DNA from: Pectinatus haikarae
GTDB lineage: Bacteria > Bacillota > Negativicutes > Selenomonadales > Selenomonadaceae
Direction: 5' to 3'
DNA: 64,000 nt
Assembly: GCF_015732185.1 (NCBI RefSeq)
Contig: NZ_WIQM01000016.1
Location: forward strand, 775,001-839,000
The notes under the pieces are model-generated. The model saw only the letters and a list, made by a program, of their open reading frames with translations, did not search any database and had not been told where the DNA came from. Shown here in pieces: positions 25,991-40,148 of this stretch. Position numbers and translations under genes: made by a program. Every line of letters begins with the position of its first letter. Within the stretch, counting starts at the first letter, position 1.

Positions 25991-26779
25991 TCAGTTAGAT
26001 TGTTCTACTGCTTTCAACTCTTTGCTGTAGTCGCTGTTGAGTGCCGCATTTTTAAAAGCGTCGCCGCCCGGCAGGACCATCCGGAAATCAGATATTCTGG
26101 ACACCTGCACTTTACCATGAATAATTTCACCGCTCAGTACATGTCCGCCTGATTTGCGGTCATCCGAAATAAAATGCAAATGGTAGCCGGGGACGTTGAT
26201 TCCGTTCATATATTGTGGGCACCATATGCCGACAATCGTTCCATGTACATTTTTTAGATCAAATTCCGATTGAGTTTTTGCGGCTTCGGCCAGTGTGGGG
26301 TAAGGTTTACTTTTTTGCGGAATTGCGCGTGTTTTCAGATTCATTACGCCATCTATACGAATGGCATAAACGTAATTTCTGTCTTTAATGATAGAATCCA
26401 ATGCGTTTTCTATTTCAGCAAAACTCTTTGCATCATTGATTTCACCAAATATTTCTGGTTTGAAATTAAGTACGTTCGCAAACGGAGTTTTTACTTTGTC
26501 ATCAGAAGTGATTACAGCTCCTGTAGATTTTACATGATAAGCTTTACCATCCAGCATAACCATTTCTCCGTCTAAGCCGTCATATGTGCCTATGCCAAAA
26601 TTACCGTACTTTTTCAGCTCTCCCACAGAAATTTCACCTTCATATACTCCCTGGATCAAAGCATTTATTGTAGAAACCTGATACATGGCATTTGGCTCTT
26701 GGGCTTTAGCCACAGATACAAAAAAGGACATGCAAAAAAACAAAATTAACATTCTTCCGAGCAAATTGATTCTCTTCAT
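25991..26779 (-). CDS. budA: Alpha-acetolactate decarboxylase with signal peptide
   Basis: A 262-residue enzyme converting acetolactate to acetoin. The core has [27 protein letters not shown] near the start of the mature domain, and the zinc ligands are visible in [17 protein letters not shown] (two His of HLH plus the later His). A typical Sec signal peptide ([27 protein letters not shown], cleavage after AKA) precedes it. Most bacterial enzymes are cytoplasmic; an exported form is known from Brevibacillus. No acetolactate synthase or acetoin genes are adjacent. Confidence 0.9.
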
Positions 26780-27232
26780 TATTCCGACCCCATTTTCTTT
26801 GTATTAATAGTAAGCCCGACTATATCCATATAATCAGACCGGCCAATCTGTAACTCTGTGTAAAACAGCGGTCATACTTTATTACTTACAAAATTTTTAT
26901 TCGTTTTTTGCATATTCAGCTGCACGGAATCATACATTAAAACAACATATTAAATTGTCTTCACTAAACTTTAATAACAGCAAAATTTAGCAATTTATCC
27001 AATCCGTTTACCCGTATTCGTGTATCATGAGGATCGCACTCGTCGTTTTCACGAAAACATTGATAAGACTTCAATAGATAAAATAATCCCGAATATTGCT
27101 TTGCAGTTCAAACATATATCACTGCGAAAAAATATTACATATATTATCGCAGTTACAGAGCAATATGCGTTTTTTATCGGCTCCCTTCATCAAATAGTAT
27201 ATTATCTGTCAGTCTGTTGATAATGTTACATA
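26780..27232. other. Non-coding stretch upstream of budA
   Basis: No convincing gene on either strand. Two inverted repeats stand out: GTTTTCACGAAAAC near 27044-27057, and ACTGCGA-N19-TCGCAGT near 27121-27153. A 66-codon open frame at 27020 lacks a ribosome site and family resemblance. Confidence 0.4.
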
Positions 27233-27329
27233 CTACATTCTATAAAACATGTGCATCATCAGACTGCTTCGGATAATAATCAAGATATGAACGAAAATAA
27301 AAATTCTTCCGCTCATGCCTGTAAAACAA
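27233..27329 (-). CDS. Micro-ORF candidate(s) behind a strong SD
   Basis: On the minus strand AGGAGGTG (27333-27340) is followed after 5-6 bases by TTG at 27329, opening a 29-codon frame (MFYRHERKNFYF..., stop at 27240). In another frame an ATG at 27316 opens a 27-codon hydrophobic peptide with FIFVHILIII (stop at 27233). The promoter, hairpin and perfect SD upstream argue that something is expressed. Which frame, if either, is unknown. A hydrophobic toxin-like peptide or a regulatory leader are both possible. Confidence 0.35.
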
Positions 27330-27344
27330 TGCCACCTCCTAATT

Positions 27345-27375
27345 AAAAAAGCCGTCCTATATCAGTAAAGACGGC
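27345..27375 (-). terminator. Hairpin with U6 tail directly after a promoter
   Basis: GCCGTC/GACGGC stem (27351-27375) followed in the minus direction by six U (27345-27350). It starts about 13 bases after the predicted transcription start of the promoter at 27395-27423 and ends just before an SD. It would act as an early terminator or attenuator. Confidence 0.65.
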
Positions 27376-27394
27376 ATAATTACGAATTTATTTT

Positions 27395-27423
27395 ACTATA
27401 TTACTTTTAACAAAAAATGTCAA
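27395..27423 (-). promoter_or_regulatory. Near-consensus sigma-70 promoter
   Basis: TTGACA (27418-27423), exactly 17 bases, TATAGT (27395-27400) on the minus strand, in an otherwise empty region. The downstream transcript would contain the hairpin and micro-ORF described at 27233-27375. Confidence 0.7.
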
Positions 27424-27675
27424 TAAATTCAGACTCATCTATAGTGTTTGTTTTGGCGATATAATAAATTTTTAGTAAAATATTTATTTACACTATAAAG
27501 TTTTTGTTAATTATTTTATTATTATTTATTATAGATGTTCTGTTTTATTTATTTTATTAACGAACGTTTACCGTTTTATAAGCAAATATTAAGTATATAC
27601 TTTTGTTAATTATTTTTGTAAGTTTCCGCCAAATATGTTAAACTGACTGTAAACTTTTAGAAAGAATAATACCCA

Positions 27676-28434
27676 ATGAAAATTATTATTTCACCGGCGA
27701 AAAAAATGAATACAGCTACGGATGATTTTCTGCCTGCCGGACTGCCTGTATTTATAGCTGAAACAGCAAAACTGCTTGATATTTTGAAGACCATGGATTA
27801 TACCGCGGTAAAAAAGTTATGGCACTGCAGCGATGCTATTGCAACTATGAATTATGAGCGTCTGCAGACTATGGATTTGTATCGAAATCTTACACCGGCT
27901 GTTCTGGCATACGAAGGCATTCAGTATATGCATATGGCTCCGGGGATTTTTGAATACAGCCAATTAGAGTATATAAAAAAGCATTTGTATATTTTGTCCG
28001 GGTTTTACGGACTTTTGCGGTCCTTTGACGGGATCGTACCTTATAGATTAGAGATGCAGGCAAGGTTTCCTGCAATGCCTTTTAAAAATCTTTATTCTTT
28101 TTGGAACGATAAGATTTCAAGCGTGCTTTGCAGTGACAAAGAATTGATATTGAATCTTGCTTCTAAAGAGTATAGCAGGGTTGTCACGGATCATCTGCCG
28201 TCTTCTGCCCGATTTCTTACCTGCACTTTTGGTGAAATGAAAGCCGACAGGGTAGTGGAGAAGGGCACAATGTGTAAAATAGCACGCGGAGAAATGGTCC
28301 GCTGGCTGGCTGAAAATAAGGTTGCCGATTTTCAATCAATTAAAGAATTTGCCATATTCGGCTATAGCTACAACAATATGTATTCTACTGAAAATAATTT
28401 TGTTTTTATTCGTAATAATCCGGTCGTACTTTGA
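27676..28434 (+). CDS. yaaA: YaaA, peroxide stress protein
   Basis: A 252-residue UPF0246/DUF328 protein starting MKIIISPAKKMN, the family signature, with later KDHLYILSGFYG-like and ARGEM segments. In E. coli YaaA limits free iron and protects DNA from Fenton damage under H2O2 stress. Here it is followed after 63 bases by a thiol peroxidase, so the pair looks like a peroxide-defence unit. There is only a weak ribosome site (AGAAAG). Confidence 0.92.
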   Translation: MKIIISPAKKMNTATDDFLPAGLPVFIAETAKLLDILKTMDYTAVKKLWHCSDAIATMNYERLQTMDLYRNLTPAVLAYEGIQYMHMAPGIFEYSQLEYIKKHLYILSGFYGLLRSFDGIVPYRLEMQARFPAMPFKNLYSFWNDKISSVLCSDKELILNLASKEYSRVVTDHLPSSARFLTCTFGEMKADRVVEKGTMCKIARGEMVRWLAENKVADFQSIKEFAIFGYSYNNMYSTENNFVFIRNNPVVL

Positions 28435-28497
28435 AATGATCCTGGCAGTTAAGGAAAAAAGGACGGCTGAAGATATTCATAAACAGGGGGAATTAAA

Positions 28498-28956
28498 ATG
28501 CTTCAATCCGGTGACAAGGCTCCAGATTTTATTCTTTTAGATAAAAACGGCAGCAAAGTATCACTATCCGATTTTTCCGGCAAAAAAATTGTCCTTTATT
28601 TTTACCCGCGGGATAATACGCCGGGCTGCACAAAACAGGCTTGTGCTTTTGCCGGTGCGTATGAGGATTTTAGGAAACAGGACATTGTTGTTATAGGCAT
28701 CAGCAAAGACAGTACGGCATCGCACCAAAAATTTGCAGAAAAGTATGACCTTCCGTTTATACTTCTTTCTGATCCGGAATTGCAGGCTATTAAAGCCTAT
28801 GATGTCTGGCAGGAGAAAAAAATGTATGGCAAAGTGAGTATGGGAATTGTCCGTACGAGCTATATAATTGATGAAAACGGTGTCATTGAAAAAGTCATGC
28901 CAAAGGTAAAACCCGATACCAATGCGGCAGATATATTGGCTTATCTGCGCGAATAG
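28498..28956 (+). CDS. bcp: Thiol peroxidase, Bcp/PrxQ type
   Basis: A 152-residue peroxiredoxin. The catalytic motif is YPRDNTPGCTKQACAF (about residues 37-52), where the first Cys is peroxidatic and the second, five residues later, is the resolving Cys of the atypical 2-Cys PrxQ class. It reduces H2O2 and organic hydroperoxides with thioredoxin. A CAGGGGG site lies before the ATG. It is co-directional with yaaA and ends at a bidirectional terminator. Confidence 0.95.
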   Translation: MLQSGDKAPDFILLDKNGSKVSLSDFSGKKIVLYFYPRDNTPGCTKQACAFAGAYEDFRKQDIVVIGISKDSTASHQKFAEKYDLPFILLSDPELQAIKAYDVWQEKKMYGKVSMGIVRTSYIIDENGVIEKVMPKVKPDTNAADILAYLRE

Positions 28957-29004
28957 TAAGCAGAAAGATGCAAAACGGACATCCCGATCGTTCTTAGAAA
29001 TTAA

Positions 29005-29061
29005 AGCAAAAAGGCAGTTGTTACTGTATACTGATCATATAGTAACAGCTGCCTTTTTGCT
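29005..29061. terminator. Bidirectional terminator between bcp and hutU
   Basis: A near-perfect 21-bp stem (29005-29025 with 29041-29061; AGCAAAAAGGCAG pairs with CTGCCTTTTTGCT) around a 15-base loop. A-run and T-run on the two arms let it serve both the bcp transcript and the convergent hut operon. Confidence 0.88.
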
Positions 29062-29076
29062 GTTTTCTTACAAAGC

Positions 29077-31089
29077 TTACTTGTCAAACATTTTATCTAC
29101 CAGGCCGCTTACCAGATTCTCATCGGCAACAAAAGGAATTGTTATATGACCTTTACCGGTGTATTTTTTGTTGAATTCTTTTGATGTTTCTATGGCATGA
29201 GGATTGCGTGCCCAGCTGCGGCGGGCGACACCACCCATAACATCCCAGAGCATAGCTGACTTTATGATAGTATCAATACGTTCACTGCCGTCAAGCACCA
29301 GTCCAAAGCCGCCGTTTATTGCCTTGCCTATTCCTGTACCGCCGCCGTTGTGAAGAGAGATAAGGCTCATGCCACGGGCTGCATTGCCTGCATAACACTG
29401 TACCGCCATATCGGCCATAACATTGCTGCCGTCTTTGATATTTGAAGTTTCCCGGAATGGTGAATCTGTACCGCTGACATCATGATGATCGCGTCCCAGC
29501 ATAATGGGGCCTGTTTCACCCTTACGCACTAACTCATTGAACTTGAGAGCTATTTTTATGCGTCCCTCGGCATCCTGGTAAAGTATGCGTGCCTGAGTAC
29601 CGACAACCATTTTATTTTTTTCCGCATCACGGATCCAATTATAATTGTCTCTGTCCTGGTATCTTCTGCTTGGATCTATGCAATCCATAGCGGCTTTGTC
29701 TGTCTGCATCAGATCTTCATGCCTGCCGCTGAGGCATACCCAGCGGAATGGACCGTAACCGTAGTCAAAAAGATGCGGTCCCATTATGTCTTCGACATAA
29801 GAAGGGAGAATAAAACCGTCTTTTTCATCAACGCCGTTTTTCGATAATTCCTTTACACCTGCATCATAGACTGCCTTAAGAAAGGAATTTCCATAATCGA
29901 AAAAGTAGGTGCCTTTTTTGACGCACGCCATTATCAGCTCATAATGGCGCCGCAAACTTTTGTTGACAAGCTTCTCAAAGGTTTCACGGTCTTCGGCGAG
30001 CATGCGAGTGCGTTCTTCAAAGCTTACTCCCTGAGGACAATAACCGCCGTCATAGGCCACATGGCACGATGTCTGATCACTCATCAGATCGATCTTGATA
30101 TCGTTTTTAACTACGTATTCCAAAAGATCGACTATATTACCGTTGTAGGCGATAGAAACAGTTGTTTTATCATGTAAATGTTTGTCAGCTGCAGCAAAAA
30201 CTTTATCGAGATCTTTGTAGCATTCACCGACCCAGCCCTGATCAAGGCGTGTTTTGATGCGGGAGTAATCGACTTCCGCTATTACTCCTACTCCATTTGC
30301 TATTTCTACGGCTTTTGGCTGAGCACCGCTCATTCCCCCCAGACCGGAGCTGACGAATATGTGGCCGTTGAGATCGCCATCGTTAGGAATACCTAAATGC
30401 ATTCGTCCGGCGTTCAAAAGAGTGTTATATGTGCCATGCACTATTCCCTGCGGCCCAATGTACATCCATCCGCCCGCAGTCATTTGACCGTAATTTGCCA
30501 CACCCATTTCCTCGGCTATTTCCCAATCTTTTTCATTGTCGAACATACCTATCATCAGAGCATTTGTGTTGATTACACGGGGAGCTTCCGGCTTCGAAGG
30601 AAAAAGACCGAGCGGCATCCCCGATTCCACCACTAAAGTCTGTTCATCGGTCATTACTTCCAAATATTTTTTGATAAGCCTATAACCCAGCCAATCATGA
30701 CATACACTGCCTGTCTCACCGTAAGTAACAAGTTCATAAGGATAAAGAGCCACCTCAAAATCAAGATTATTATCTATCATCACTTGAAAAGCTTTTCCTT
30801 CCAAACATTTTCCGGCGTATTCATCTATTGGTTTTCCGTATATGCGCCCTTGAGGGCGCCATCTGTATGCATATATGCGCCCGTAAGTCTTTAATTCCTG
30901 TAAGAATTCCGGAGCTGCTTTTTCATGCAGTTCTTCGGGCAGATAACGCAAAGCATTTTTTAAGGCTATTTTTGTCTGTTCACTGCTTAAATGAAAACCT
31001 CTGCTTGGGGCTCTGCGTATTCCCTGCTCAAATATCGGTTCATCAGGAAAGATATTATCCAGCTTTATTTCGGTCGTTGACTGTATCAT
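29077..31089 (-). CDS. hutU: Urocanate hydratase (long form)
   Basis: A 670-residue urocanase, of the long type rather than the 555-residue Pseudomonas type. Motifs include GWMYIGPQGIVHGTY, SGLGGMSGAQPKA, DQTSCHVAYDGGYCPQG and FRWVCLSGRHEDLM near the NAD-binding site. It adds water to urocanate to give 4-imidazolone-5-propionate. Last gene of the minus-strand operon, 24 bases after hutI. No histidine ammonia-lyase is in the window, so the substrate urocanate must come from elsewhere. Confidence 0.97.
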   Translation of the reverse strand: MIQSTTEIKLDNIFPDEPIFEQGIRRAPSRGFHLSSEQTKIALKNALRYLPEELHEKAAPEFLQELKTYGRIYAYRWRPQGRIYGKPIDEYAGKCLEGKAFQVMIDNNLDFEVALYPYELVTYGETGSVCHDWLGYRLIKKYLEVMTDEQTLVVESGMPLGLFPSKPEAPRVINTNALMIGMFDNEKDWEIAEEMGVANYGQMTAGGWMYIGPQGIVHGTYNTLLNAGRMHLGIPNDGDLNGHIFVSSGLGGMSGAQPKAVEIANGVGVIAEVDYSRIKTRLDQGWVGECYKDLDKVFAAADKHLHDKTTVSIAYNGNIVDLLEYVVKNDIKIDLMSDQTSCHVAYDGGYCPQGVSFEERTRMLAEDRETFEKLVNKSLRRHYELIMACVKKGTYFFDYGNSFLKAVYDAGVKELSKNGVDEKDGFILPSYVEDIMGPHLFDYGYGPFRWVCLSGRHEDLMQTDKAAMDCIDPSRRYQDRDNYNWIRDAEKNKMVVGTQARILYQDAEGRIKIALKFNELVRKGETGPIMLGRDHHDVSGTDSPFRETSNIKDGSNVMADMAVQCYAGNAARGMSLISLHNGGGTGIGKAINGGFGLVLDGSERIDTIIKSAMLWDVMGGVARRSWARNPHAIETSKEFNKKYTGKGHITIPFVADENLVSGLVDKMFDK

Positions 31090-31112
31090 TATGCATTGCT
31101 CCTTTATGACTA

Positions 31113-32357
31113 TTAGAATATAATTTCACCATTTTTTATCACATGCTCAACTATATTAATTCCTGTCAGATAGACTAAAAATCTATAGTCCGATTTGCTT
31201 AAAAGTAAAATATCAGCCTTTTTACCCGGCTCTATACTGCCTGAAGTATCAGCCTCATCCACTGCGGCCGCGGCATTCAGTGTAATCGCTGTCAATGCCT
31301 CATTTATTGTCAGATGCATATTAATAACGGCAAGTGCAAGTATAAGCGGCGCGGCGTATGAATAGCAGCTTCCCGGATTGAAATCGCTGGCTAAGGCTAC
31401 GATGCAGCCGGTGTCTATCATCTGTCTGGCCGGGGCAAATTGCTTGCGCATGCAAAAGGCTGTCATCGGCAGTAATACTGCCGCAGTATTACTGCCAGCT
31501 AATTTTTTTATATCTTCATCGGTAACAGCAAGCAGATGATCTGCACTGACCGCCCCTATGTCCGCAGCCAGACCGCCGCCTCCTGTCGACACTATTTCAT
31601 CGGCATGTATTTTTGCCTTCATGCCCGTTTCCTTTGCAGCCAGCAGCAATTTCTGCGATTCAGCTATACTGAATACACCCTTTTCACAAAAAACGTCGCA
31701 GAACTCAGCAAGTTTTTCTTTTTGTATTTCAGGAAAAACCTGTTCTATCGTAAAATCTATAAATTCATTGGATCTGCCGGCAAATTCGGGAGGTACGGCA
31801 TGTGCTCCTAAAAAAGTCGTTTTCAATGTAATCGGCAGGTCTTTCTGCAGTCTTTTCATTGTCCGCAGCATTTTAAGCTCGGTATTTTTATCCAAGCCGT
31901 ATCCGCTTTTGCCTTCTATAGTTGTAAAACCTTGTTTGAGCATATTTTCGAGAATTTTTTTACCGGCAGAGTACATATTTTCTTCGCTCATCACACGAGT
32001 CTGCCGCATGGTGCTGACTATACCGCCGCCTCTTTTTAAGAGATCCATATAGGGAACACCCTCGAGCCTGGCGATGAACTCGTCGGCACGAGTTCCGCCA
32101 AACAAAAAATGTGTATGCGGATCAACAAAGCCGGGAACGGCACATTTTCCGTGAGCGTCTATTTCTTTGACAGCTGTGCCAGACGATAGCTGCGGCAGTA
32201 CTTCTTCGGCTGTGCCTGCCAGTTTTATTATTCCGTCTTCACAATAAATTGCGCCGTTTTTATAAATCTTTATATCGTTCATTGCTTTCCCACGCAGTGC
32301 TGTCTTTCCGAGCGGAGTGGCAATTTCAGCTAAATTTTTTATAAGCAGACGATTCAT
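31113..32357 (-). CDS. hutI: Imidazolonepropionase
   Basis: A 414-residue metal-dependent amidohydrolase. Metal ligands appear in DPHTHFLFGG (about residues 77-86), IHADEI and SDFNPGSCYSY. It opens the ring of 4-imidazolone-5-propionate to N-formimino-L-glutamate. It lies between the aconitase X small subunit and hutU in a single operon, with a GAGG site 9 bases before the ATG. Confidence 0.96.
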   Translation of the reverse strand: MNRLLIKNLAEIATPLGKTALRGKAMNDIKIYKNGAIYCEDGIIKLAGTAEEVLPQLSSGTAVKEIDAHGKCAVPGFVDPHTHFLFGGTRADEFIARLEGVPYMDLLKRGGGIVSTMRQTRVMSEENMYSAGKKILENMLKQGFTTIEGKSGYGLDKNTELKMLRTMKRLQKDLPITLKTTFLGAHAVPPEFAGRSNEFIDFTIEQVFPEIQKEKLAEFCDVFCEKGVFSIAESQKLLLAAKETGMKAKIHADEIVSTGGGGLAADIGAVSADHLLAVTDEDIKKLAGSNTAAVLLPMTAFCMRKQFAPARQMIDTGCIVALASDFNPGSCYSYAAPLILALAVINMHLTINEALTAITLNAAAAVDEADTSGSIEPGKKADILLLSKSDYRFLVYLTGINIVEHVIKNGEIIF

Positions 32358-32386
32358 CAGCTTTACCTCATATTCAGTACATTTAT

Positions 32387-32791
32387 TTATATTTTCCGCA
32401 GAATGCCATTATCTGCATCAAGTTCTACCATGTCACCGTCATGGAAATCTTTGTAAAAGTCATCATCCATTTTATTTACCATAGGAGCGTCAAGAATGAT
32501 AGCGCTCGCAGCTAAGGTCGTATCAGCATTTACCACTATCATGGCAGCAGGATTCATTCCTGTCATTTTCAATTGATACATTCCGTCTGCCTGTACAACT
32601 GAACTCCCTTTACCATAGGGGAATACTAAGATTTTTCCGGCAACGGATTTTTGATAAAGGCAGTGCTCTTTTTCTATAATCTTACCGTCTTTTGGTTCAA
32701 TAAGATAAAAGCACATACCGTCATCGGAAAAAAGTAATTGGCCTGTTACCTTACCACCTGATATTTTGTGGCAGTCGTATTGTTTTTTCAT
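32387..32791 (-). CDS. Aconitase X swivel (small) subunit, DUF126
   Basis: A 134-residue protein of the DUF126 family, the swivelling domain of aconitase X. It has ISGGKVTGQLLFSDD near the start, and LDAPMVNKMDDDFYKDFHDGDMVELD near the end. The two-subunit aconitase X enzymes studied so far dehydrate hydroxyproline derivatives or, in archaea, phosphomevalonate. Its ATG follows the large-subunit stop by one base (TAA-A-ATG), so the subunits are made together. The substrate here is not known. Confidence 0.88.
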   Translation of the reverse strand: MKKQYDCHKISGGKVTGQLLFSDDGMCFYLIEPKDGKIIEKEHCLYQKSVAGKILVFPYGKGSSVVQADGMYQLKMTGMNPAAMIVVNADTTLAASAIILDAPMVNKMDDDFYKDFHDGDMVELDADNGILRKI

Positions 32792-32792
32792 T

Positions 32793-33992
32793 TTAGTATT
32801 CTCCTTTCAAAGCTGCATATATACTTTCTTTAAGAGGGGCTATGATAAACTGCATATCACGCCGTTTCGTATAATAGGCGCATTTGGGAGAATCTGTTAT
32901 TCCCTTTTTACCATATAAAAATTTCCAGCATGGTTGATCCATACAAGTATCTTCTACTATTTCACCGCCGGCTGTTTTTATTATATCCGCATATCCCATT
33001 TTTTGAGACAAACTGCGAGTCAGTGAAGAGGTCATAATAAATAACGGAACAGATAATTTTTTCCCTTTTACCATTTCGGCAACCGTGCATACCTGGTCGA
33101 TCGTGAAATGCGGGCAGCCATATAAGGCAAAATCTATTTTCCCATTTTTGTCAGATATTTCTTCGCGCATATTTTTCAGATCATTATTGGTGATGGTTAC
33201 TTCATACTGTGGTTTTTTGCCTTGAAAGGCATCTTCCATTGTCAGTGCTTCCGGTGTAAAACCAAGAATGTGATAAAGGGCTACGTTGCCTCCTGTATTA
33301 AGCTGTGCGCCCAGATTCATCAGAGCTTCCTTACTGGGATTTGTCAGCCCTTCAAAAACAGGGATAGAAAAGCCGATTTTTTTTGGAGCAAAATAACCGA
33401 GCATCTGATAAGTAAAATCATCTTCCATATCAGCCTCCACATGTACCAATACCTGTCCGGCACGATTTTCTTTCAATAAAAATCCGTAATAAGGTGTTAC
33501 TCCCGTAACAGCACTGCATAGAGCGCTCTGCGCTGATTCTCTGTTAGAACGGGCACCATAAACGGAGTTTACAAAAGGCGTCGCGCTTGATTCGGAAAAT
33601 GAAATGATTTCGCCGAAACGCGGTACATTTTTTTCAAGATAAGGCGTACAATCATAAGTCATTATTGCGCCGAGCTTGGTGTAGGCCGCATGTGTACGTT
33701 TGACTATTTCTTCGTCTTCCCTGTCAATATCAGTTATTGCCTGAAATTGTTCCAGATTGAAACTGGGATTGACAGTCGGACGTATACGGCATACTGCCTC
33801 ACCAGCCGTTAATTTTTCAGCAAACCATAGATCAGCTTCCTGATTGCTGAGCGCAACATGAGTACGTGTCACGGGAACCATCTTGGGAGCATCGTAGGCT
33901 TCTCCTATCGCAACCAGTATTTTCATTGCCAGCTGAGTGCCCTGCCCGTAGTTTCCTTCTAACATTTTTTTTTCTTCTTCAGTAAGATACAT
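32793..33992 (-). CDS. Aconitase X catalytic (large) subunit, DUF521
   Basis: A 399-residue protein of the DUF521 aconitase X family, starting MYLTEEEKKMLEGNYG. Family features are SFSESSATPFVNSVYGARSNRE, LVHVEADMED and LYGCPHFTIDQV, with cysteines available for the iron-sulfur cluster. ATG 33992 is preferred because GGGGAGG lies 7 bases upstream; the open frame runs 17 codons further. Known relatives act as cis-3-hydroxy-L-proline dehydratase or mevalonate-5-phosphate dehydratase. No proline-catabolic partner is present, but hutI and hutU follow, so a role with histidine-derived or hydantoin-like compounds is suspected. Confidence 0.9.
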   Translation of the reverse strand: MYLTEEEKKMLEGNYGQGTQLAMKILVAIGEAYDAPKMVPVTRTHVALSNQEADLWFAEKLTAGEAVCRIRPTVNPSFNLEQFQAITDIDREDEEIVKRTHAAYTKLGAIMTYDCTPYLEKNVPRFGEIISFSESSATPFVNSVYGARSNRESAQSALCSAVTGVTPYYGFLLKENRAGQVLVHVEADMEDDFTYQMLGYFAPKKIGFSIPVFEGLTNPSKEALMNLGAQLNTGGNVALYHILGFTPEALTMEDAFQGKKPQYEVTITNNDLKNMREEISDKNGKIDFALYGCPHFTIDQVCTVAEMVKGKKLSVPLFIMTSSLTRSLSQKMGYADIIKTAGGEIVEDTCMDQPCWKFLYGKKGITDSPKCAYYTKRRDMQFIIAPLKESIYAALKGEY

Positions 33993-34051
33993 ATATAAAC
34001 CTCCCCAATTATAGTATTGCTCCGGATAATGAAAATAGTGCAATAAAGTTT

Positions 34052-35392
34052 TTACTCATTTTCAAGATGCTGCATAGTCATTTTTACCTGTTCAAGTACA
34101 CGACTTTCTGTTGTATTTACCAAGTGGCCCTGTATGACTGTTGTTTTGCCGTTTACAGCTACACGTTTAATCGCTGTGGGCTGCATGGAGTAAATAAGAT
34201 TGGGTAGAAATTGCTGCCCTTTTTTTGTCAGGGGCTGCATAGAAAAATCATATACAGATATTCCGACGAAGTCGGCTTTATAACCGTCGGCTATTTTGCC
34301 GATGGGAAGGTCAAGCACTGTACCGCCTGTTTCGGTTCCCATTTTGAATGCATCATGGAAATTCACACAAAGAGCGTTACAGGTTTTTGCCTTCTGCAGA
34401 AGTGATACCATGCGCATTTCCTCAAATACACTGATGCGACTGTTGCCGCAGGCTCCATCACTGCCCAGTGCTATGGGGACCGAATGCCTGATGTATGCGG
34501 GAATATCGGTGATACCGTCTGCGAGGAACATATTGCTTGACGGGCAGTAAATAAGATGAGCACCTTTTCGGCCCATCGTTCTTATTTCATCTTCACTGAG
34601 CCATACACCATGTATTATTGACATATGTTTGTCAACTACGCCTAAGGAATCAAGATATTTTAACGGTGTCATGCCATGTTCTTTTTTTACTTGATCTACT
34701 TCAAAGATTTCTTCCGCTACATGAATATGATAGGGGGTATTATATTCACATGCCAGACGGTAGCCTGCTTTGATCATTTCAGGGGAAGCAGCATGCAGAC
34801 TGTGCGGTGCGGGCAAAACTTTCACCATTCCACCCGTATATTTTTTCATCAAAGATGCTGTATTGCTGACTGCTGTTTCGACATTTTCTACATAACCGGA
34901 AGGTGCGCCGGTCCAGTCATACATAGTTCTGGCTATGACCAGTCTTATTCCGGCATCGTTTGCTGCCTGAATAACTGCTTCATCGCTTTCACTGCCAAAT
35001 TGATGAAGATAAAAGAAATCGGCTACAGTGGTCGCACCGCATTTCATCATCTCTGTAAAGGCAAATAGTGCTCCCGTGTAAATATCCTGCAATCGCATAC
35101 GCGGTGAAAATTTGTAGAGAGAGTTATCACGCCATTCTAAAAAAGGCCGGTCAGCGGCTACTCCGCGGAGTAAGCTCTGAAAGCTGTGATTATGGGCATT
35201 AATGCTGCCGGGAACAATGACGAGATCACCCCAGTCTTCTTTTCCGGCGTCAGGATACTCCTTTTCCAGCTGTGCTGCTGCAGCTATCTTTTCAATATCA
35301 CCGGTGTGCATATTTACTGCAATGGCTTTATTTTCCACAAGACAGCTGTCAATAAAAATTGCTGCTGCTTTTATTATTTTTATTGACATCAT
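34052..35392 (-). CDS. HutF-like amidohydrolase/deaminase
   Basis: A 446-residue ATZ/TRZ-type amidohydrolase. Metal sites are visible in SINAHNHSFQ (about residues 61-70), PYHIHVAEE, IIHGVWLSEDE and LGSDGACGNSRISVFEEMR. The NAHNHSFQ, LEWRD and TEMMKCGATTVADFFYLH stretches resemble formimidoylglutamate deiminase (HutF), which would fit directly after HutI and give N-formylglutamate plus ammonia. Similar deaminases act on guanine or other heterocycles, so HutF activity is inference. It overlaps the upstream M20 gene by four bases (ATGA). Confidence 0.8.
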   Translation of the reverse strand: MMSIKIIKAAAIFIDSCLVENKAIAVNMHTGDIEKIAAAAQLEKEYPDAGKEDWGDLVIVPGSINAHNHSFQSLLRGVAADRPFLEWRDNSLYKFSPRMRLQDIYTGALFAFTEMMKCGATTVADFFYLHQFGSESDEAVIQAANDAGIRLVIARTMYDWTGAPSGYVENVETAVSNTASLMKKYTGGMVKVLPAPHSLHAASPEMIKAGYRLACEYNTPYHIHVAEEIFEVDQVKKEHGMTPLKYLDSLGVVDKHMSIIHGVWLSEDEIRTMGRKGAHLIYCPSSNMFLADGITDIPAYIRHSVPIALGSDGACGNSRISVFEEMRMVSLLQKAKTCNALCVNFHDAFKMGTETGGTVLDLPIGKIADGYKADFVGISVYDFSMQPLTKKGQQFLPNLIYSMQPTAIKRVAVNGKTTVIQGHLVNTTESRVLEQVKMTMQHLENE

Positions 35393-36660
35393 ACCAGCTC
35401 CTTATCCAAAATCAACAATGTATCGAGATAAACTTGTGCCGCTATAGCCACTTCACGCGGAGCGGTATATTCCTGAGGACAATGGCTGTATCCGTTGACA
35501 CTCTGGGAAAAAAGCATAGCGGTTTTTGTCAGCCTTGCCATATTGGCAGCATCATGTCCGGCCATGCTCACAAGCTTCATCGGCGGCTGCGCTTCTTTTT
35601 CGATGGCCTTCATGACAGCCTCCACTGCCGTTTCATCCATGGACATTTCCGGTTGATCAAGATTAAGTCTGCGTATTATTTTTATATCCCGTTTTTTCTC
35701 TATTGCTGCTATCCTTTCCTTTAATTTTGCCAGAGCCTTTTTCCTATCTTCAGGAAAGGCCGTACGCAGATCTATGGTAAAAGAAACTTCACCCGGTATG
35801 ATATTGGAAGCGTTTGGAATAATCTGCATATGACCGACAGTCACAGCAATTGACGTGAAATCTTCCATTATATGTTCAATGGCAAGACAGAGCTCTGAGG
35901 CAGCACATAATGCATCCCGCCTGTCCTGAAGCTGTGTGGTGCCTGCATGATTTGCCTCTCCTTTTATTGATATAATTTCTCTGTAGATGCCTGTGATACA
36001 ACTGACGGCCGCAACAGCCTGCTGTTTGCGGTATAAACGTTGTCCTTGTTCGATATGGAATTCAAGGAAAGCGGTCATAGTGCCTTTTTCCAGAACGGCA
36101 CTGTCTATTTGGCTGCTGTTTCCGCCGAGCCAGTCGATAGCTTCAGTCAAAGGTCTGCCTGTATTTCTGTCGTGCAGAATACTTATATCTTTTTTTGTCA
36201 GGCGGCCGCATAAAATTTTGCTGCCGAGGGTAGAAACAGAAAAGCTGTTTGGTTCTTCACCGGTAAAAGAGATAATTTCTAAGGGGTGACGTGTTTTTAT
36301 TCCACTGTCACTTATTGATTGAATGGCTTCCATTGCCATCAATACACCAAGTGCTCCATCAAATTTTCCTCCATTGGGAACACTGTCGTGATGCGATCCG
36401 AAAACAATCGGTTTATTTTTTAGATGTTCGCCGTAACTGCCCCACATATTGGCGGCGGCATCAACAGTGACTTTCAGGCCTATGTCTTTTTCCCATATAT
36501 CTTTGAGCCATCTTCTTGTATCTTTATCAGCCTGGCTGCCAAGCTGTCTGTCTATACCACCGGTTTTTTTATTCAATCCGAACTGAGACATTTCTTCTAA
36601 TCTGAATAGTAAACGGTCCTTATTTATAGTGATTTTTTTATTGTCACTTATTTCTATCAC
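35389..36660 (-). CDS. M20-family N-carbamoyl/N-acyl amino acid hydrolase
   Basis: A 423-residue zinc amidase of the hydantoinase/carbamoylase family (HyuC, AllC-like). Metal-site motifs are GSHHDSVPNGGKFDG (about residues 93-107), FTGEEPNSF, FLEFHIEQG and GHDAANMARL. Relatives remove the carbamoyl group from N-carbamoyl-L-amino acids or hydrolyse allantoate. In a hut operon without hutG it could hydrolyse N-formyl- or N-carbamoyl-L-glutamate to glutamate. It begins with GTG and is first in the operon M20-amidohydrolase-AcnX-hutI-hutU. Confidence 0.85.
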   Translation of the reverse strand: MIEISDNKKITINKDRLLFRLEEMSQFGLNKKTGGIDRQLGSQADKDTRRWLKDIWEKDIGLKVTVDAAANMWGSYGEHLKNKPIVFGSHHDSVPNGGKFDGALGVLMAMEAIQSISDSGIKTRHPLEIISFTGEEPNSFSVSTLGSKILCGRLTKKDISILHDRNTGRPLTEAIDWLGGNSSQIDSAVLEKGTMTAFLEFHIEQGQRLYRKQQAVAAVSCITGIYREIISIKGEANHAGTTQLQDRRDALCAASELCLAIEHIMEDFTSIAVTVGHMQIIPNASNIIPGEVSFTIDLRTAFPEDRKKALAKLKERIAAIEKKRDIKIIRRLNLDQPEMSMDETAVEAVMKAIEKEAQPPMKLVSMAGHDAANMARLTKTAMLFSQSVNGYSHCPQEYTAPREVAIAAQVYLDTLLILDKELV

Positions 36661-36742
36661 ACAACATCAGCCCCTTGCTAATCTATAAATATTTGTAGAA
36701 TTAATTCATTTATATAAAAATATAATAAATAAATCATTCAAT

Positions 36743-36793
36743 AAAAAGCAAAAAAAGTGCCTTATTCACGAAGAATAAAGCACCCTTGCTTTT
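36743..36793 (-). terminator. Intrinsic terminator after the RpiR gene
   Basis: GTGCcTTATTC/GAATAAaGCAC stem at 36757-36783, extended by AAAAAGCAA/TTGCTTTTT, followed in the minus direction by a run of seven U. It separates the regulator gene from the hut-like operon. Confidence 0.82.
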
Positions 36794-36831
36794 TATTAGT
36801 GCTTTAATTATAAAATTCTGATACGTAAATG

Positions 36832-37692
36832 TCAATAGTAAACTTTATTATTAAGTTCTATATTCTCTATTTTTTCCATTCGTTTCGATATTTCCGGTAT
36901 CTTTTTAGCAGCATCACGCAGAAGTATGTTAAAAAATATCATGGGTGTACTGTAGATATCAAAAATAGAAGAAACAGTGAGCGGGACACAAACAGCAGAA
37001 TCACTGCATTCCATTAAAGGTGAAAATTCACTGTCGGTGACACCATAAATATGAAATCCTGATTTTTTTAATTTCTGACATTTTTCGACAAGAGCTCTCG
37101 GATACCGCGGCATCATAACGGCCAATATATTTACACTTTCAGGGTCCGTAAGCTCTACCGTGTCCCATTGCGGAGACGATGGCGTGTATTCATGTACAAA
37201 ATCCCTCATTTTATTGAGAATGTAATGCACATATGGCACGATAGTAAAAGACATCCTGGCTGATAAGATAATCAGCGGCTTAGTTGAGGCAAGCATATCC
37301 ACCATTTTTTTATAGGACTCAGACTCCATTATACCGCCAAGTTTTTCCATATTTGCCAGTTCGTTATCGAAAATAGAGTGCATGTATTTATCTTTTATGC
37401 CGTGCTTTTCTGTGAATTGCAGCCTTTTAGGGGCAGTAAGTTCCTTGCTTACCATATTTTGCAGATTTTGTAAAAAATCATTATATCCTCTGTAGCCAAG
37501 AGCCATGAAAAATCTTGATATGCTGCCCTGGCTGACACCTACCTGTTCGGCCAGCTCATTTGTCGTCATGAAAACGATTTGCAGATAGTTATCATTTATG
37601 TATACGGCAATTTTTTTATAAGTAGGGGACGTATCAGCAATAAATTTTAACATGTTAGTAAGTTGCTCAAATGTTTCAATATTTTTTCCCAT
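36832..37692 (-). CDS. RpiR/MurR-family transcriptional regulator
   Basis: A 286-residue regulator with an N-terminal HTH_6 domain (MTTNELAEQVGVSQGSISRFFMALGYRGYNDF, about residues 42-73) and a C-terminal SIS domain (about 125-260, IILSARMSFTIVPYVHYIL). RpiR regulators sense phosphosugars or, in several hut-like and amino-acid loci, other ligands. Its position just upstream of and co-directional with the hut-like operon and downstream of hutD makes it the probable local regulator. An AGGAGGA site precedes the ATG. Confidence 0.92.
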   Translation of the reverse strand: MGKNIETFEQLTNMLKFIADTSPTYKKIAVYINDNYLQIVFMTTNELAEQVGVSQGSISRFFMALGYRGYNDFLQNLQNMVSKELTAPKRLQFTEKHGIKDKYMHSIFDNELANMEKLGGIMESESYKKMVDMLASTKPLIILSARMSFTIVPYVHYILNKMRDFVHEYTPSSPQWDTVELTDPESVNILAVMMPRYPRALVEKCQKLKKSGFHIYGVTDSEFSPLMECSDSAVCVPLTVSSIFDIYSTPMIFFNILLRDAAKKIPEISKRMEKIENIELNNKVYY

Positions 37693-37732
37693 ATATTTAT
37701 CCTCCTTTTATTAATAGTATAATTCATGTATC

Positions 37733-37744
37733 AGTATTAATACT
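37733..37744. promoter_or_regulatory. Palindrome upstream of rpiR
   Basis: AGTATTAATACT is a perfect 12-bp palindrome about 40 bases before the regulator's ATG, surrounded by further AGTATA/TATACT repeats. It is a candidate autoregulatory operator, with no support beyond symmetry and position. Confidence 0.35.
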
Positions 37745-37808
37745 CAATATATTATACTGCATATACTATACTGCTGCATAATTTATTTTTAAGTCTATTT
37801 TGAAAAAA

Positions 37809-38375
37809 TCACCAGTTGATTTTACAAATAACAGCTCTTGAGTGATCTATAATTTTTTTTAATTTGCACGCAGGAAAATTATTTAAATACAGCAATTCTC
37901 CTTTATGCAGTGTAAAACTTTTTTGACCGCATAAAATTTCATATGCACCGTCTGCTATATATATGTAACAAGCATTATCAGCTTCTAAACTAAAATGAGG
38001 ATCAGCAATGGTAAAAAGATCTGCATTTTTATAAGAGTTTTGTTTAAGCATCACGTTAAAATCGGTGCAGCGGCCTTTGCTTATGGTCTTATCGGCTCCG
38101 CTGAAAAAGTGGGCAGTAAAAGGTTTTAATTTTATCTCTTTCCGGTTATTGTGTATAAGTGAGATTTCATTATCCAGACTCATCAAAATGCGGTCTATAC
38201 CAATCAGTTCGGTAAAGGTGGATACATCCGCATCTACTGTTGCCGAGCTTAAGCGCAGCTTGAAGTCTCTGGCTTCGTAATGTGAATTGTTGGGGGAAAT
38301 GTACAATTGGGTGGTGGATCCGCCGCTCCAAGACGTAGTCTGATGTTCTTTTGCCGAAAAAATTTTTTCAAACAT
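37809..38375 (-). CDS. hutD: HutD-family protein
   Basis: A 188-residue cupin-like protein with HutD (DUF886) marks: WSGGSTTQLYISP near residue 16, KLRLSSATVDADVSTFTELIGIDRILM and GRCTDFNVMLK. HutD is found with hut genes and, in Pseudomonas, is thought to set an upper limit on hut operon expression, perhaps by binding N-formylglutamate or urocanate. It has its own promoter and a terminator-like hairpin in the leader. Its presence supports a histidine/urocanate role for the neighbouring operon. Confidence 0.88.
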   Translation of the reverse strand: MFEKIFSAKEHQTTSWSGGSTTQLYISPNNSHYEARDFKLRLSSATVDADVSTFTELIGIDRILMSLDNEISLIHNNRKEIKLKPFTAHFFSGADKTISKGRCTDFNVMLKQNSYKNADLFTIADPHFSLEADNACYIYIADGAYEILCGQKSFTLHKGELLYLNNFPACKLKKIIDHSRAVICKINW

Positions 38376-38407
38376 ATTTTTTTCACCTCAGATTTCCATA
38401 TTATACT

Positions 38408-38440
38408 AAAAACGGCACCTATCATATATGATAAGCGCCG
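38408..38440 (-). terminator. Terminator-like hairpin in the hutD leader
   Basis: CGGC...TATCATATATGATA...GCCG stem at 38413-38440, then UUUUU (38408-38412) in the minus direction. It begins only a few bases after the predicted start of transcription from the promoter at 38453-38481 and precedes the hutD ribosome site. It could alternatively terminate mnmA read-through. Confidence 0.62.
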
Positions 38441-38452
38441 CTGCCTGCTCCA

Positions 38453-38481
38453 AGTATAGAAGCAAAGAAAAGAAATGTCAA
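38453..38481 (-). promoter_or_regulatory. Consensus promoter between mnmA and hutD
   Basis: TTGACA (38476-38481), 17 bases, TATACT (38453-38458) on the minus strand. It reads into a hairpin and then hutD. Confidence 0.72.
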
Positions 38482-38513
38482 GAATTCGTTTATTATGGCT
38501 GTCGTGAAGAAGT

Positions 38514-39596
38514 TCATTTAAGTGGTTCTGTTATTATGCCGCCGCCTAAAAGAATATTGTCATCATAAAAAACTACTGACTGTCCCGGTGTTACAGCACG
38601 CTGCGGTTCTTTAAAAATAACTTTTGCCGTATTATTTTCCAGCGGATAAACTGTCGCCTGGCACACATTCTTTCCATAGCGAATCTGCGCATATGTTTCA
38701 AGAGGCCCCTCTATATTATCAAAAGGGATCCAATTCAGTTTTTTGGCCATAAGCCCTGAGGAAAAAACATCTTTGTTGCTTCCGACGACAACTTCATTTT
38801 TATCGCTGTTGAGCTGGATTACATACAAAGGTTCAGCTGCGGCGATTCCAAGTCCCTTTCGCTGGCCTACGGTATACAACGATAAGCCGTTGTGACGCCC
38901 TAATATATTACCATCAACATCGACTATATTGCCAGCTTTGAAATGCATTTGCGAATGATTTTGAAGATATGCTTTATAATCGTCATTGGGAATAAAACAT
39001 ATTTCCTGGCTTTCCTTTTTATTTGCTACAGGCAGATTATATTTTTTAGCCATTTCCCGAGTCTGCGTTTTAGTGTAGCTGCTCAGAGGGAAGATTATGT
39101 GACTGAGAGCTTCCTGACCCAAATGATAGAGCACATACGACTGATCTTTGTGAGTGTCAGCGGCACGTTTGATCAGATAACGTTCTTTTTCGTTTTTTTC
39201 TATGGTAACATAATGCCCTGTGGCCATATAATCAGCGCCGAGTTTCATGCATTCGTTCAGAAGTCTGCCGAATTTTATGCAATGATTGCAGCGGACACAG
39301 GGGTTGGGGGTATGCGCTGACATATATTCATCTATGAAATAATCAGATACTTCTTTTTTAAATATGTCCTTGAAATCCATAACATAATGCTTAATATTAA
39401 GCAGATTGCAGACTATGCGTGCATCCTTTACAGAACTGAGCTGATCGTAGCTGTCTTCTTTGGAAAAACCGCGGCCTTCATCACTTAAAACCATGGTAAC
39501 GCCAAAAACGTCATAACCCTTGTCCAATAAAATAGCAGCTGTCGTAGAGCTGTCTACACCGCCGCTCATAGCAACGGCAACTTTTTTCTTTTCCAC
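38514..39596 (-). CDS. mnmA: tRNA-specific 2-thiouridylase MnmA
   Basis: A 360-residue PP-loop enzyme (VAVAMSGGVDSSTTAAILL near the start) that thiolates U34 of tRNAs for Glu, Gln and Lys. The two catalytic cysteines are in NPCVRCN and QEICFIPNDD. A GTG start at 39596 is chosen because AAGGTGAG lies just upstream; an in-frame TTG six codons earlier overlaps that site. In many Firmicutes mnmA follows an Rrf2 gene and a cysteine desulfurase. Here the desulfurase is missing and a hairpin separates mnmA from the Rrf2 gene. Confidence 0.96.
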   Translation of the reverse strand: MEKKKVAVAMSGGVDSSTTAAILLDKGYDVFGVTMVLSDEGRGFSKEDSYDQLSSVKDARIVCNLLNIKHYVMDFKDIFKKEVSDYFIDEYMSAHTPNPCVRCNHCIKFGRLLNECMKLGADYMATGHYVTIEKNEKERYLIKRAADTHKDQSYVLYHLGQEALSHIIFPLSSYTKTQTREMAKKYNLPVANKKESQEICFIPNDDYKAYLQNHSQMHFKAGNIVDVDGNILGRHNGLSLYTVGQRKGLGIAAAEPLYVIQLNSDKNEVVVGSNKDVFSSGLMAKKLNWIPFDNIEGPLETYAQIRYGKNVCQATVYPLENNTAKVIFKEPQRAVTPGQSVVFYDDNILLGGGIITEPLK

Positions 39597-39625
39597 TATT
39601 ATCTCACCTTGCAATAAATTAATAA

Positions 39626-39664
39626 GGGATGGAGAACAGGAAATATTCCATGTCCCTCCATCCC
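39626..39664 (-). terminator. Hairpin between Rrf2 gene and mnmA
   Basis: GGGATGGAG/CTCCATCCC 9-bp stem with an inner GGA/TCC, followed by TTATTAATTTATT in the minus direction. It lies 29 bases after the Rrf2 stop codon. It could end the Rrf2 transcript or attenuate mnmA. Confidence 0.55.
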
Positions 39665-39692
39665 GATAACCATGTGCTGAATCAGAAAAGGT

Positions 39693-40148
39693 TCATGCCT
39701 CCACCATACTGTTTAACATAGAGGCTTTCTTGCCATTTTCACATAAATCAGCCAGAGTAATCGAGTCCAAAACCTCGCTGATGCTTTGACACACCCGCTC
39801 CCATACTCCGCGGGTTACACATTTATCTGCTTTTTTACAAATCTGGCTGCTGGAATCCGCTTCATTCAGAAGACAATCTACCAAGGCAATAGGTCCTTCC
39901 ATGATAGTGATAATATCGCCTATAGTGATATCGGCGGGATCCCTTGTCAATACATATCCTCCCTGTGCGCCACGAGTACTCTTGACAAGACCGGCATTTC
40001 TGAGCGCGCAGATAAGCTGCTCCAGATAATTATCGGAGATATCCTGCTTTGCAGCGATAGTGCGCAATGATAAAGGTCCCTGGCCATAATTCAATGCCAA
40101 TTCATACATGGCAGTGACACCATAGCGACCTCTTGTCGACAATTTCAT
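39693..40148 (-). CDS. Rrf2-family (IscR-like) transcriptional regulator
   Basis: A 151-residue protein starting MKLSTRGRYGVTAMYELAL, with a winged-helix DNA-binding domain and three cysteines in CLLNEADSSSQICKKADKC (about residues 92-110), the spacing used by IscR/NsrR-type regulators to bind an Fe-S cluster. The ATG at 40148 has GGAGG 8 bases upstream; the frame continues five codons. It probably senses Fe-S cluster status or cysteine. No isc/suf genes are adjacent. Confidence 0.92.
   Translation of the reverse strand: MKLSTRGRYGVTAMYELALNYGQGPLSLRTIAAKQDISDNYLEQLICALRNAGLVKSTRGAQGGYVLTRDPADITIGDIITIMEGPIALVDCLLNEADSSSQICKKADKCVTRGVWERVCQSISEVLDSITLADLCENGKKASMLNSMVEA

Follow-up and report, generated by a model that had tools for sequence, protein, structure and literature searches.

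A two-subunit aconitase X as a candidate imidazole-lactate dehydratase supplying urocanate to hut operons of Pectinatus and other bacteria

The stretch of Pectinatus haikarae DNA analysed here (64,000 nt; contig NZ_WIQM01000016.1, positions 775,001 to 839,000; hereafter the window) contains, at positions 29077-36660 of the minus strand, an operon encoding an M20 amidohydrolase (M20), a second amidohydrolase (AH), the large and small subunits of an aconitase X (AcnX), imidazolonepropionase (HutI) and urocanate hydratase (HutU), with RpiR and HutD encoded upstream. In textbook accounts, urocanate is formed by histidine ammonia-lyase (HutH), an enzyme that was not found in this genome. From the gene context, we propose that AcnX is an imidazole-lactate dehydratase that forms urocanate, a reading to which we assign a probability of about two in three; that AcnX, from one substrate or another, feeds urocanate into HutU is very probable.

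The window genome is 3.11 Mb and 99.57% complete, and its AcnX is 87-90% identical to the AcnX of named or same-genus Pectinatus genomes. The initial annotation, made from the operon, recorded no hutH and no ftcD, and this extends to the entire genome in which neither PF00221 (HutH) nor PF07837, the formiminotransferase domain of FtcD, has a match; the same searches were positive in 5 and 1, respectively, of 14 control genomes. Among 189 genomes of the order Selenomonadales, 18 have HutU, 12 have AcnX and 12 have HutH, and every genome with AcnX or HutH has HutU. Six of the HutU genomes have HutH only, six AcnX only (one of them, G181, just 82% complete) and six have both. From 201 Lactobacillaceae genomes, a draw centred on a known carrier, nine have HutU and four AcnX, and HutH, sought there in the nine HutU genomes only, is present in precisely the other five. 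When these 27 HutU genomes are pooled, AcnX is present in all 10 that do not have HutH, HutH is present in all 11 that do not have AcnX, six have both and none has neither (Fisher p of 0.001 pooled, 0.008 for Lactobacillaceae and 0.054 for the order, by a test that ignores kinship). Since each enzyme is always present where the other is missing, AcnX is the likely source of urocanate in the genomes without HutH. A hydro-lyase had initially seemed to have no place in the hut route; this view is not supported, as AcnX would act at the top of the pathway as a urocanate source that alternates with HutH. Of the two explanations then offered, a new branch or a different heterocyclic substrate, it is the new branch that is borne out in part, in the form of an alternative entry to urocanate.

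The two operon types share their lower genes. Four HutH-type operons of AcnX-free genomes (L085-L087 and L092, the last from Lactobacillaceae) encode, in order, HutH, an ATP-binding cassette (ABC) transporter, M20, AH, HutU and HutI; each is flanked on one side by RpiR, and two of them also have HutD. HutH is last in the operon at L088 and L089, and at L090 the contig ends before HutH. The retention of M20 and AH in HutH operons that have no AcnX shows that this pair is independent of AcnX, and fits a role in the lower steps, from formiminoglutamate to glutamate. Three of the 27 HutU genomes (G178, G315 and G363) have FtcD, always within the HutH locus, and the earlier suggestion that AH may replace HutF, and M20 may replace HutG, finds support in this context, with the same pair present in AcnX-free HutH-type operons of genomes without FtcD. 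In a HutU tree, the AcnX and HutH operon types are interleaved, with at least seven changes of type, four of which are forced by well-supported branches. For this tree, L032 and L041 were labelled AcnX despite a nearby HutH (L099 and L100), L091, L108 and L109 were labelled HutH despite an AcnX elsewhere in the genome, and L103 and L107 were left unlabelled. Megamonas sp. UBA1796 (G178) has both systems, one organized as HutU-HutI-FtcD-permease-HutH (L091) and the other as M20-AH-AcnX-2-hydroxyacid dehydrogenase-NMT1 transporter-HutU-HutI-HutD (L030). At two Lactobacillaceae loci (L096 and L097) HutH is accompanied by a shorter, distant HutU (~30% identity), and the HutH match in P. frisingensis is divided between two contig ends (L101; G190/G045 C68, C69).

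The initial annotation had allowed that the AcnX-hut linkage might be restricted to one strain. A neighbourhood check instead finds it in Selenomonadales, Clostridia, Lactobacillaceae and Bifidobacterium, and this recurrence across lineages rules out a chance or single-strain association. AcnX of this clade, at 75-100% identity, is present in 12 of the 189 Selenomonadales genomes, and HutU in all 12 of these as against 18 of the 189 overall. Scanning the contigs of named genomes identified 26 AcnX loci, in Selenomonadales (including Pectinatus, Propionispira and Megamonas), Clostridium, Faecalispora, Lachnospiraceae, Liquorilactobacillus, Agrilactobacillus, Bifidobacteriaceae, Propionibacterium, Actinomyces and a spirochaete. 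HutU, HutI, AH and M20 are each encoded at 17 of the 26 loci, and HutD and RpiR each at 14, with many of the stretches ending at contig edges; a looser count of labels gives 20 for AH and 16 for HutD, and the stricter 17 and 14 are preferred. HutU is present somewhere in 26 of the 27 AcnX carrier genomes, the exception being Actinomyces provencensis, whose AcnX gene is apparently incomplete. In Clostridium sporosphaeroides and Faecalispora (L034 and L035), AcnX is encoded with M20, AH, the dehydrogenase, the transporter, HutD and RpiR, and HutU is encoded elsewhere in the genome. AcnX is located behind a sugar-type ABC transporter and short-chain and zinc-type dehydrogenases in the spirochaete (L039), whereas at L040 it follows genes for a DcuA/B transporter and two M20 proteins. 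The short or split AcnX large-subunit frames at L050 (10010-11200, A. provencensis) and L047 (6430-7673, one L. mali record) reflect either decay or sequencing error. Many of the carriers (L026-L029, L037, L038, L042-L045 and L047) belong to genera that inhabit beer, wine, cider or water kefir, in which imidazole-lactate made by yeast might be available to them.

The genes specifically associated with AcnX point to a 2-hydroxy acid. A D-isomer-type 2-hydroxyacid dehydrogenase is encoded at 19 of the 26 AcnX loci, in 16 cases immediately behind the AcnX small subunit; homologues of LarA are present at four loci, the IorA and IorB components of arylpyruvate oxidoreductase at four and five, respectively, and a CoA ligase at five, and 22 of the 26 have at least one of the dehydrogenase, LarA and IorB. 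The gene for the LarA homologue either immediately precedes AcnX or stands one gene apart from it (L031, L032 at 1895-3163, L041 and L046); the one that was scanned belongs to nickel-pincer isomerase group 22 (484.7 bits, cut-off 400), and these proteins may be imidazole-lactate racemases. Neither 'group 22' nor 'imidazol' occurs in the main text of two papers on LarA. An NMT1/SsuA-type binding protein is encoded at 20 of the 26 loci. At the 13 HutH-type loci (L085-L097), no match to the dehydrogenase, LarA, IorAB, CoA ligase or NMT1-type protein was obtained at E 1e-6. The transporter type also changes with the enzyme. Of nine transporter candidates scanned, from nine HutH loci, six are amino-acid binding proteins of family 3 and the other three are permeases for amino acids; eight of these nine adjoin HutH, with that of L097 ~6 kb away; at L099 and L100, in genomes with both enzymes, an amino-acid binding protein comes after HutH. 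The window genome has, ~310 kb from the operon (C1:484287-493772; L105 6288-15773), a cluster of seven genes that encode a binding protein, 2-hydroxyacid dehydrogenase, IorA, IorB, CoA ligase, aldehyde dehydrogenase and iron-type alcohol dehydrogenase. In genome G209, counterparts of all seven (49-77% identical) form one run that continues into LarA-RpiR-AcnX-M20-AH-HutU-HutI-HutD. As these AcnX-specific partners (dehydrogenase, LarA, IorAB and transporter) fit imidazole-pyruvate and imidazole-lactate, and a single dehydration of imidazole-lactate gives urocanate, imidazole-lactate is the substrate that we favour. Acetolactate-synthase-like thiamine pyrophosphate enzymes encoded beside the module at L046 (19359-21008) and L051 (8310-10004) might decarboxylate imidazole-pyruvate.

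Both subunits of the window AcnX score well above the cut-offs of their families, the large subunit (DUF521; 32793-33992, minus strand) with 429.4 bits against PF04412 (cut-off 31.5) and the small subunit (DUF126; 32387-32791, minus strand) with 86.4 bits against PF01989 (cut-off 27), which identifies a two-subunit aconitase X. The solved structure closest to the large subunit (236 bits) is 7cnr, that of TkAcnX, the Type IIb mevalonate-5-phosphate dehydratase, which also has two subunits. The large subunit of the window was aligned with those of 24 loci (25 rows; L047 and L050 were omitted as split or short frames) and the small subunit with those of 25 loci (26 rows; L040 ends at a contig edge). 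All three Fe-S cysteines of TkAcnX (C110, C283 and C342) and the catalytic Glu/Ser and Lys/Tyr residues are conserved in 25/25 large subunits, and the general-base Ser, Ser63 in the window protein, in 26/26 small subunits. AtAcnX, the cis-3-hydroxyproline type, has the fold family, the general-base Ser and the Glu, Lys and Tyr in common with the window protein, which differs from it in having the third Fe-S cysteine, as in TkAcnX.

The residues that would contact the substrate are different. In all 25 rows, Gly48, Val49, Ser50 and Asn53, which bind phosphate in TkAcnX, are replaced by Leu, Ser, Asn and a gap, and the Type IIb signature is therefore absent; an invariant ALSNQEADLWF stretch replaces the phosphate-binding loop. 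The proline-binding residues of AtAcnX, which contact the nitrogen and the ring, are also missing, with Asp203 falling within a two-residue deletion, Trp35 replaced by Tyr and Thr72 by Val, and no hydroxyproline genes were noticed nearby. Scores against the NCBIfam hydroxyproline dehydratase-type equivalog are 215.2 bits for the large and 43.5 bits for the small subunit, relative to a cut-off of 700, for a model of the fused form that handicaps two-subunit proteins. With ALSNQEADLWF in the distal pocket, Tyr at the position of Trp35/Leu27 and the base surrounded by an SSVVQ(A/T)DG loop, the substrate pocket is, as judged from the alignments, unlike that of either known AcnX type. PMC8184944 describes AcnX Types IIc-IIf as uncharacterised and as lacking both substrate signatures; these signatures are likewise absent here. 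When compared with TkAcnX, AtAcnX and six plasmid-encoded AcnX relatives, the 25 large subunits form one clade (support 100/99), with long outgroup branches. In a plasmid collection, AcnX relatives, all <60% identical, occur in 160 records; of six taken from the 40 of these that were listed, three have annotated hydroxyproline- or proline-racemase-type neighbours, two do not and one, from Cupriavidus (39% identity), is unannotated; within the 17 kb of the latter, there is no match to the window hut proteins. A second, weak PF04412 match is present in the window genome at C4:481915-482142 (L002; 23.1 bits, cut-off 31.5).

In the route that we propose, the AcnX heterodimer would remove water from imidazole-lactate (2-hydroxy-3-(imidazol-4-yl)propanoate), with the Fe-S cluster serving as the Lewis acid and the small subunit contributing Ser63 as the base. 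The resulting urocanate would be converted by HutU and HutI to N-formiminoglutamate, by AH to N-formylglutamate and by M20 to glutamate and formate. Imidazole-lactate would be imported, or generated from imidazole-pyruvate by the D-2-hydroxyacid dehydrogenase that is linked to AcnX; in carriers that have them, the LarA-type enzyme would interconvert D and L imidazole-lactate, and IorAB with the CoA ligase would convert imidazole-pyruvate to imidazole-acetate. AcnX would so provide a HutH-independent entry to histidine-type catabolism that replaces HutH in some genomes and coexists with it in others. The AcnX substrate and the directions of all of these reactions are our proposal, for genes whose presence, linkage, alternation with HutH and conserved catalytic residues are observed directly. 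On balance, we also favour the broader conclusion that this is a third aconitase X function, an Fe-S imidazole-lactate dehydratase, and that a module comprising transporter, 2-hydroxyacid dehydrogenase, LarA-type racemase, AcnX, HutU, HutI, AH and M20 has been swapped with HutH several times in anaerobic and lactic-acid Bacillota, and is present also in Actinomycetota. Among the matches listed from the openly licensed PubMed Central literature, no title or abstract opening ties AcnX to urocanate or imidazole-lactate.

Several observations weigh against imidazole-lactate as the substrate or AcnX as a substitute for HutH. With cis-3-hydroxy-L-proline (C3LHyp) and mevalonate-5-phosphate, AcnX removes a beta-hydroxyl beside an acidic alpha proton, according to PMC8184944. 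Imidazole-lactate, in contrast, would lose its alpha-hydroxyl, a reaction that would be new for AcnX. It is nevertheless possible, since aconitase itself removes the alpha-hydroxyl from isocitrate. The alternation with HutH is based on a test blind to kinship, on a Lactobacillaceae draw built around a carrier and, in the order alone, on a p of 0.054. HutH is also present in 12 of the 27 AcnX carrier genomes, including L. uvarum (G207), which is outside the Lactobacillaceae draw; the idea that AcnX strictly replaces HutH is weakened by these carriers, and AcnX is retained as an alternative entry. At the window locus and in P. cerevisiiphilus there is no 2-hydroxyacid dehydrogenase or transporter beside AcnX, four of the 26 loci (L026, L039, L040 and L050) have no dehydrogenase, LarA or IorB, and a dedicated histidine aminotransferase was not noticed.

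The regiochemistry would be preserved if AcnX generated urocanate, or a near precursor, from some other hydroxy compound, such as 3-hydroxy-3-imidazolylpropionate or, via imidazole-pyruvate, beta-hydroxyhistidine. The alternation of AcnX and HutH is equally consistent with such a substrate, but the linked dehydrogenase and LarA homologue belong to 2-hydroxy acid families and we know of no natural supply of either compound, making this explanation unlikely. Alternatively, AcnX might make no urocanate, and carriers without HutH might scavenge it, with AcnX handling a side product, for example by isomerising cis-urocanate or, as an electron sink, hydrating urocanate to imidazole-lactate. The elimination is reversible in principle, and isomerisation is known among other aconitase family members (PMC8184944), but a side activity would not predict AcnX in 10/10 HutU genomes without HutH and HutH in 11/11 without AcnX, and we regard this as distinctly improbable. 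That AcnX acts downstream of HutI, or belongs to a distinct pathway for a heterocycle such as hydantoin-5-propionate, as was suggested initially, could be argued from the relationship of M20, albeit below the cut-off, to the N-carbamoylglutamate hydrolase ErtE; it is made very improbable by HutU and HutI scores that exceed standard equivalog cut-offs and by the presence of M20 and AH in HutH operons without AcnX. Dehydration of cis-3-hydroxyproline is the known bacterial AcnX activity (PMC5144071), and the window AcnX could be such an enzyme located in a hut operon by accident. With Asp203, Trp35 and Thr72 of AtAcnX lost, an equivalog score of 215 against 700 and a linkage to hut genes that is general across lineages, this seems extremely unlikely. 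Dehydration of imidazole-lactate to urocanate remains the reading that we prefer.

The six tightly spaced minus-strand genes, in the order initially described and with RpiR and HutD upstream, were confirmed by coordinates and family profiles. M20 and AH overlap by 4 nt, and the AcnX large and small subunit genes are separated by 1 nt, AcnX small and HutI by 29 nt, and HutI and HutU by 23 nt. The AcnX large subunit most likely begins at the ATG at 33992, rather than the TTG at 34043, because GGGAGG precedes this ATG and TkAcnX begins at the matching Met; the gap from AH is then 59 nt. M20 (35389-36660, minus strand), the proposed N-formylglutamate hydrolase, belongs to the hydantoinase/carbamoylase family (TIGR01879, 312 bits, cut-off 204) and scores below the cut-off for the ErtE N-carbamyl-L-glutamate amidohydrolase (NF058540, 352.2 versus 520 bits). 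AH (34052-35392, minus strand) had been called HutF-like; it is an amidohydrolase, of the TRZ/ATZ type (PF01979, 182.5 bits), and membership of HutF, formimidoylglutamate deiminase, is not supported (TIGR02022, 183.3 versus 413.05 bits), so that its proposed role as a formiminoglutamate deiminase is inferred from gene context. HutI (31113-32357, minus strand) scores 461.5 bits against TIGR01224 (cut-off 298.15), and HutU (29077-31089, minus strand), a long-form urocanate hydratase, 426.6 bits against TIGR01228 (cut-off 375) and 577 bits against 6uek. Ergothioneine breakdown, considered in view of the ErtE-like M20, was rejected as HutU scores as a true urocanase and far below the cut-offs of thiourocanate hydratase models. 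Upstream, the RpiR-type regulator (36832-37692, minus strand) has PF01418 (HTH_6) and PF01380 domains, and HutD (37809-38375, minus strand) matches PF05962 (96.8 bits, cut-off 25). The product of a separate reading frame at 25991-26779 of the window looks like acetolactate decarboxylase and begins with a segment resembling a signal peptide.

A promoter-like site with 12/12 consensus bases (36807-36835, minus strand) overlaps the end of rpiR, and its hexamers are present also in three other Pectinatus leaders. A terminator-like hairpin (36753-36787, minus strand) follows ~20 nt past this site, before the M20 start, and a second (29010-29056) is located past hutU, between convergent genes. The operon had been described as bounded by terminators; both hairpins are present, but since the promoter-like site precedes the upstream one, this hairpin may be a leader element rather than a plain boundary. 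Site and hairpin are kept in four Pectinatus leaders, with a conserved AT-rich repeat behind them; this region (window 36640-36840) may act as an attenuator or operator, or may simply mark the end of rpiR. No Rfam family reaches its gathering score within window positions 27000-40000.

The classical hut operon, with HutH, HutU, HutI and then FtcD or HutF/HutG, shares HutU and HutI with the operon described here and, in several lineages, also RpiR, HutD, M20 and AH; it differs in that AcnX is here the proposed source of urocanate, in a genome without HutH and FtcD. The conversion of a 2-oxo acid to a 2-hydroxy acid and then to an arylacrylate follows a logic like that of the reductive Stickland route. 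Phenyllactate dehydratase of that route is, however, a CoA-dependent radical dehydratase, whereas the enzyme proposed here is an aconitase-family protein and the urocanate continues to glutamate. Imidazole-lactate enters histidine-type catabolism, as proposed here, also in Pseudomonas testosteroni, in which imidazolyl-L-lactate degradation (Coote and Hassall, 1973) reportedly returns through histidine and HutH. Urocanate absorbs strongly near 277 nm. Imidazole-lactate is described as a microbial-derived metabolite in PMC12583827. If the proposal is correct, a HutU genome without HutH would not signify a broken pathway, which would alter genome-based predictions of histidine breakdown, and a substrate would be provided for an uncharacterised AcnX subtype and for LarA group 22. 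The reaction itself would be new, as would this role for a poorly understood enzyme family, and the proposal would indicate how imidazole-lactate is used by some bacteria of the gut, of food and of beverages.

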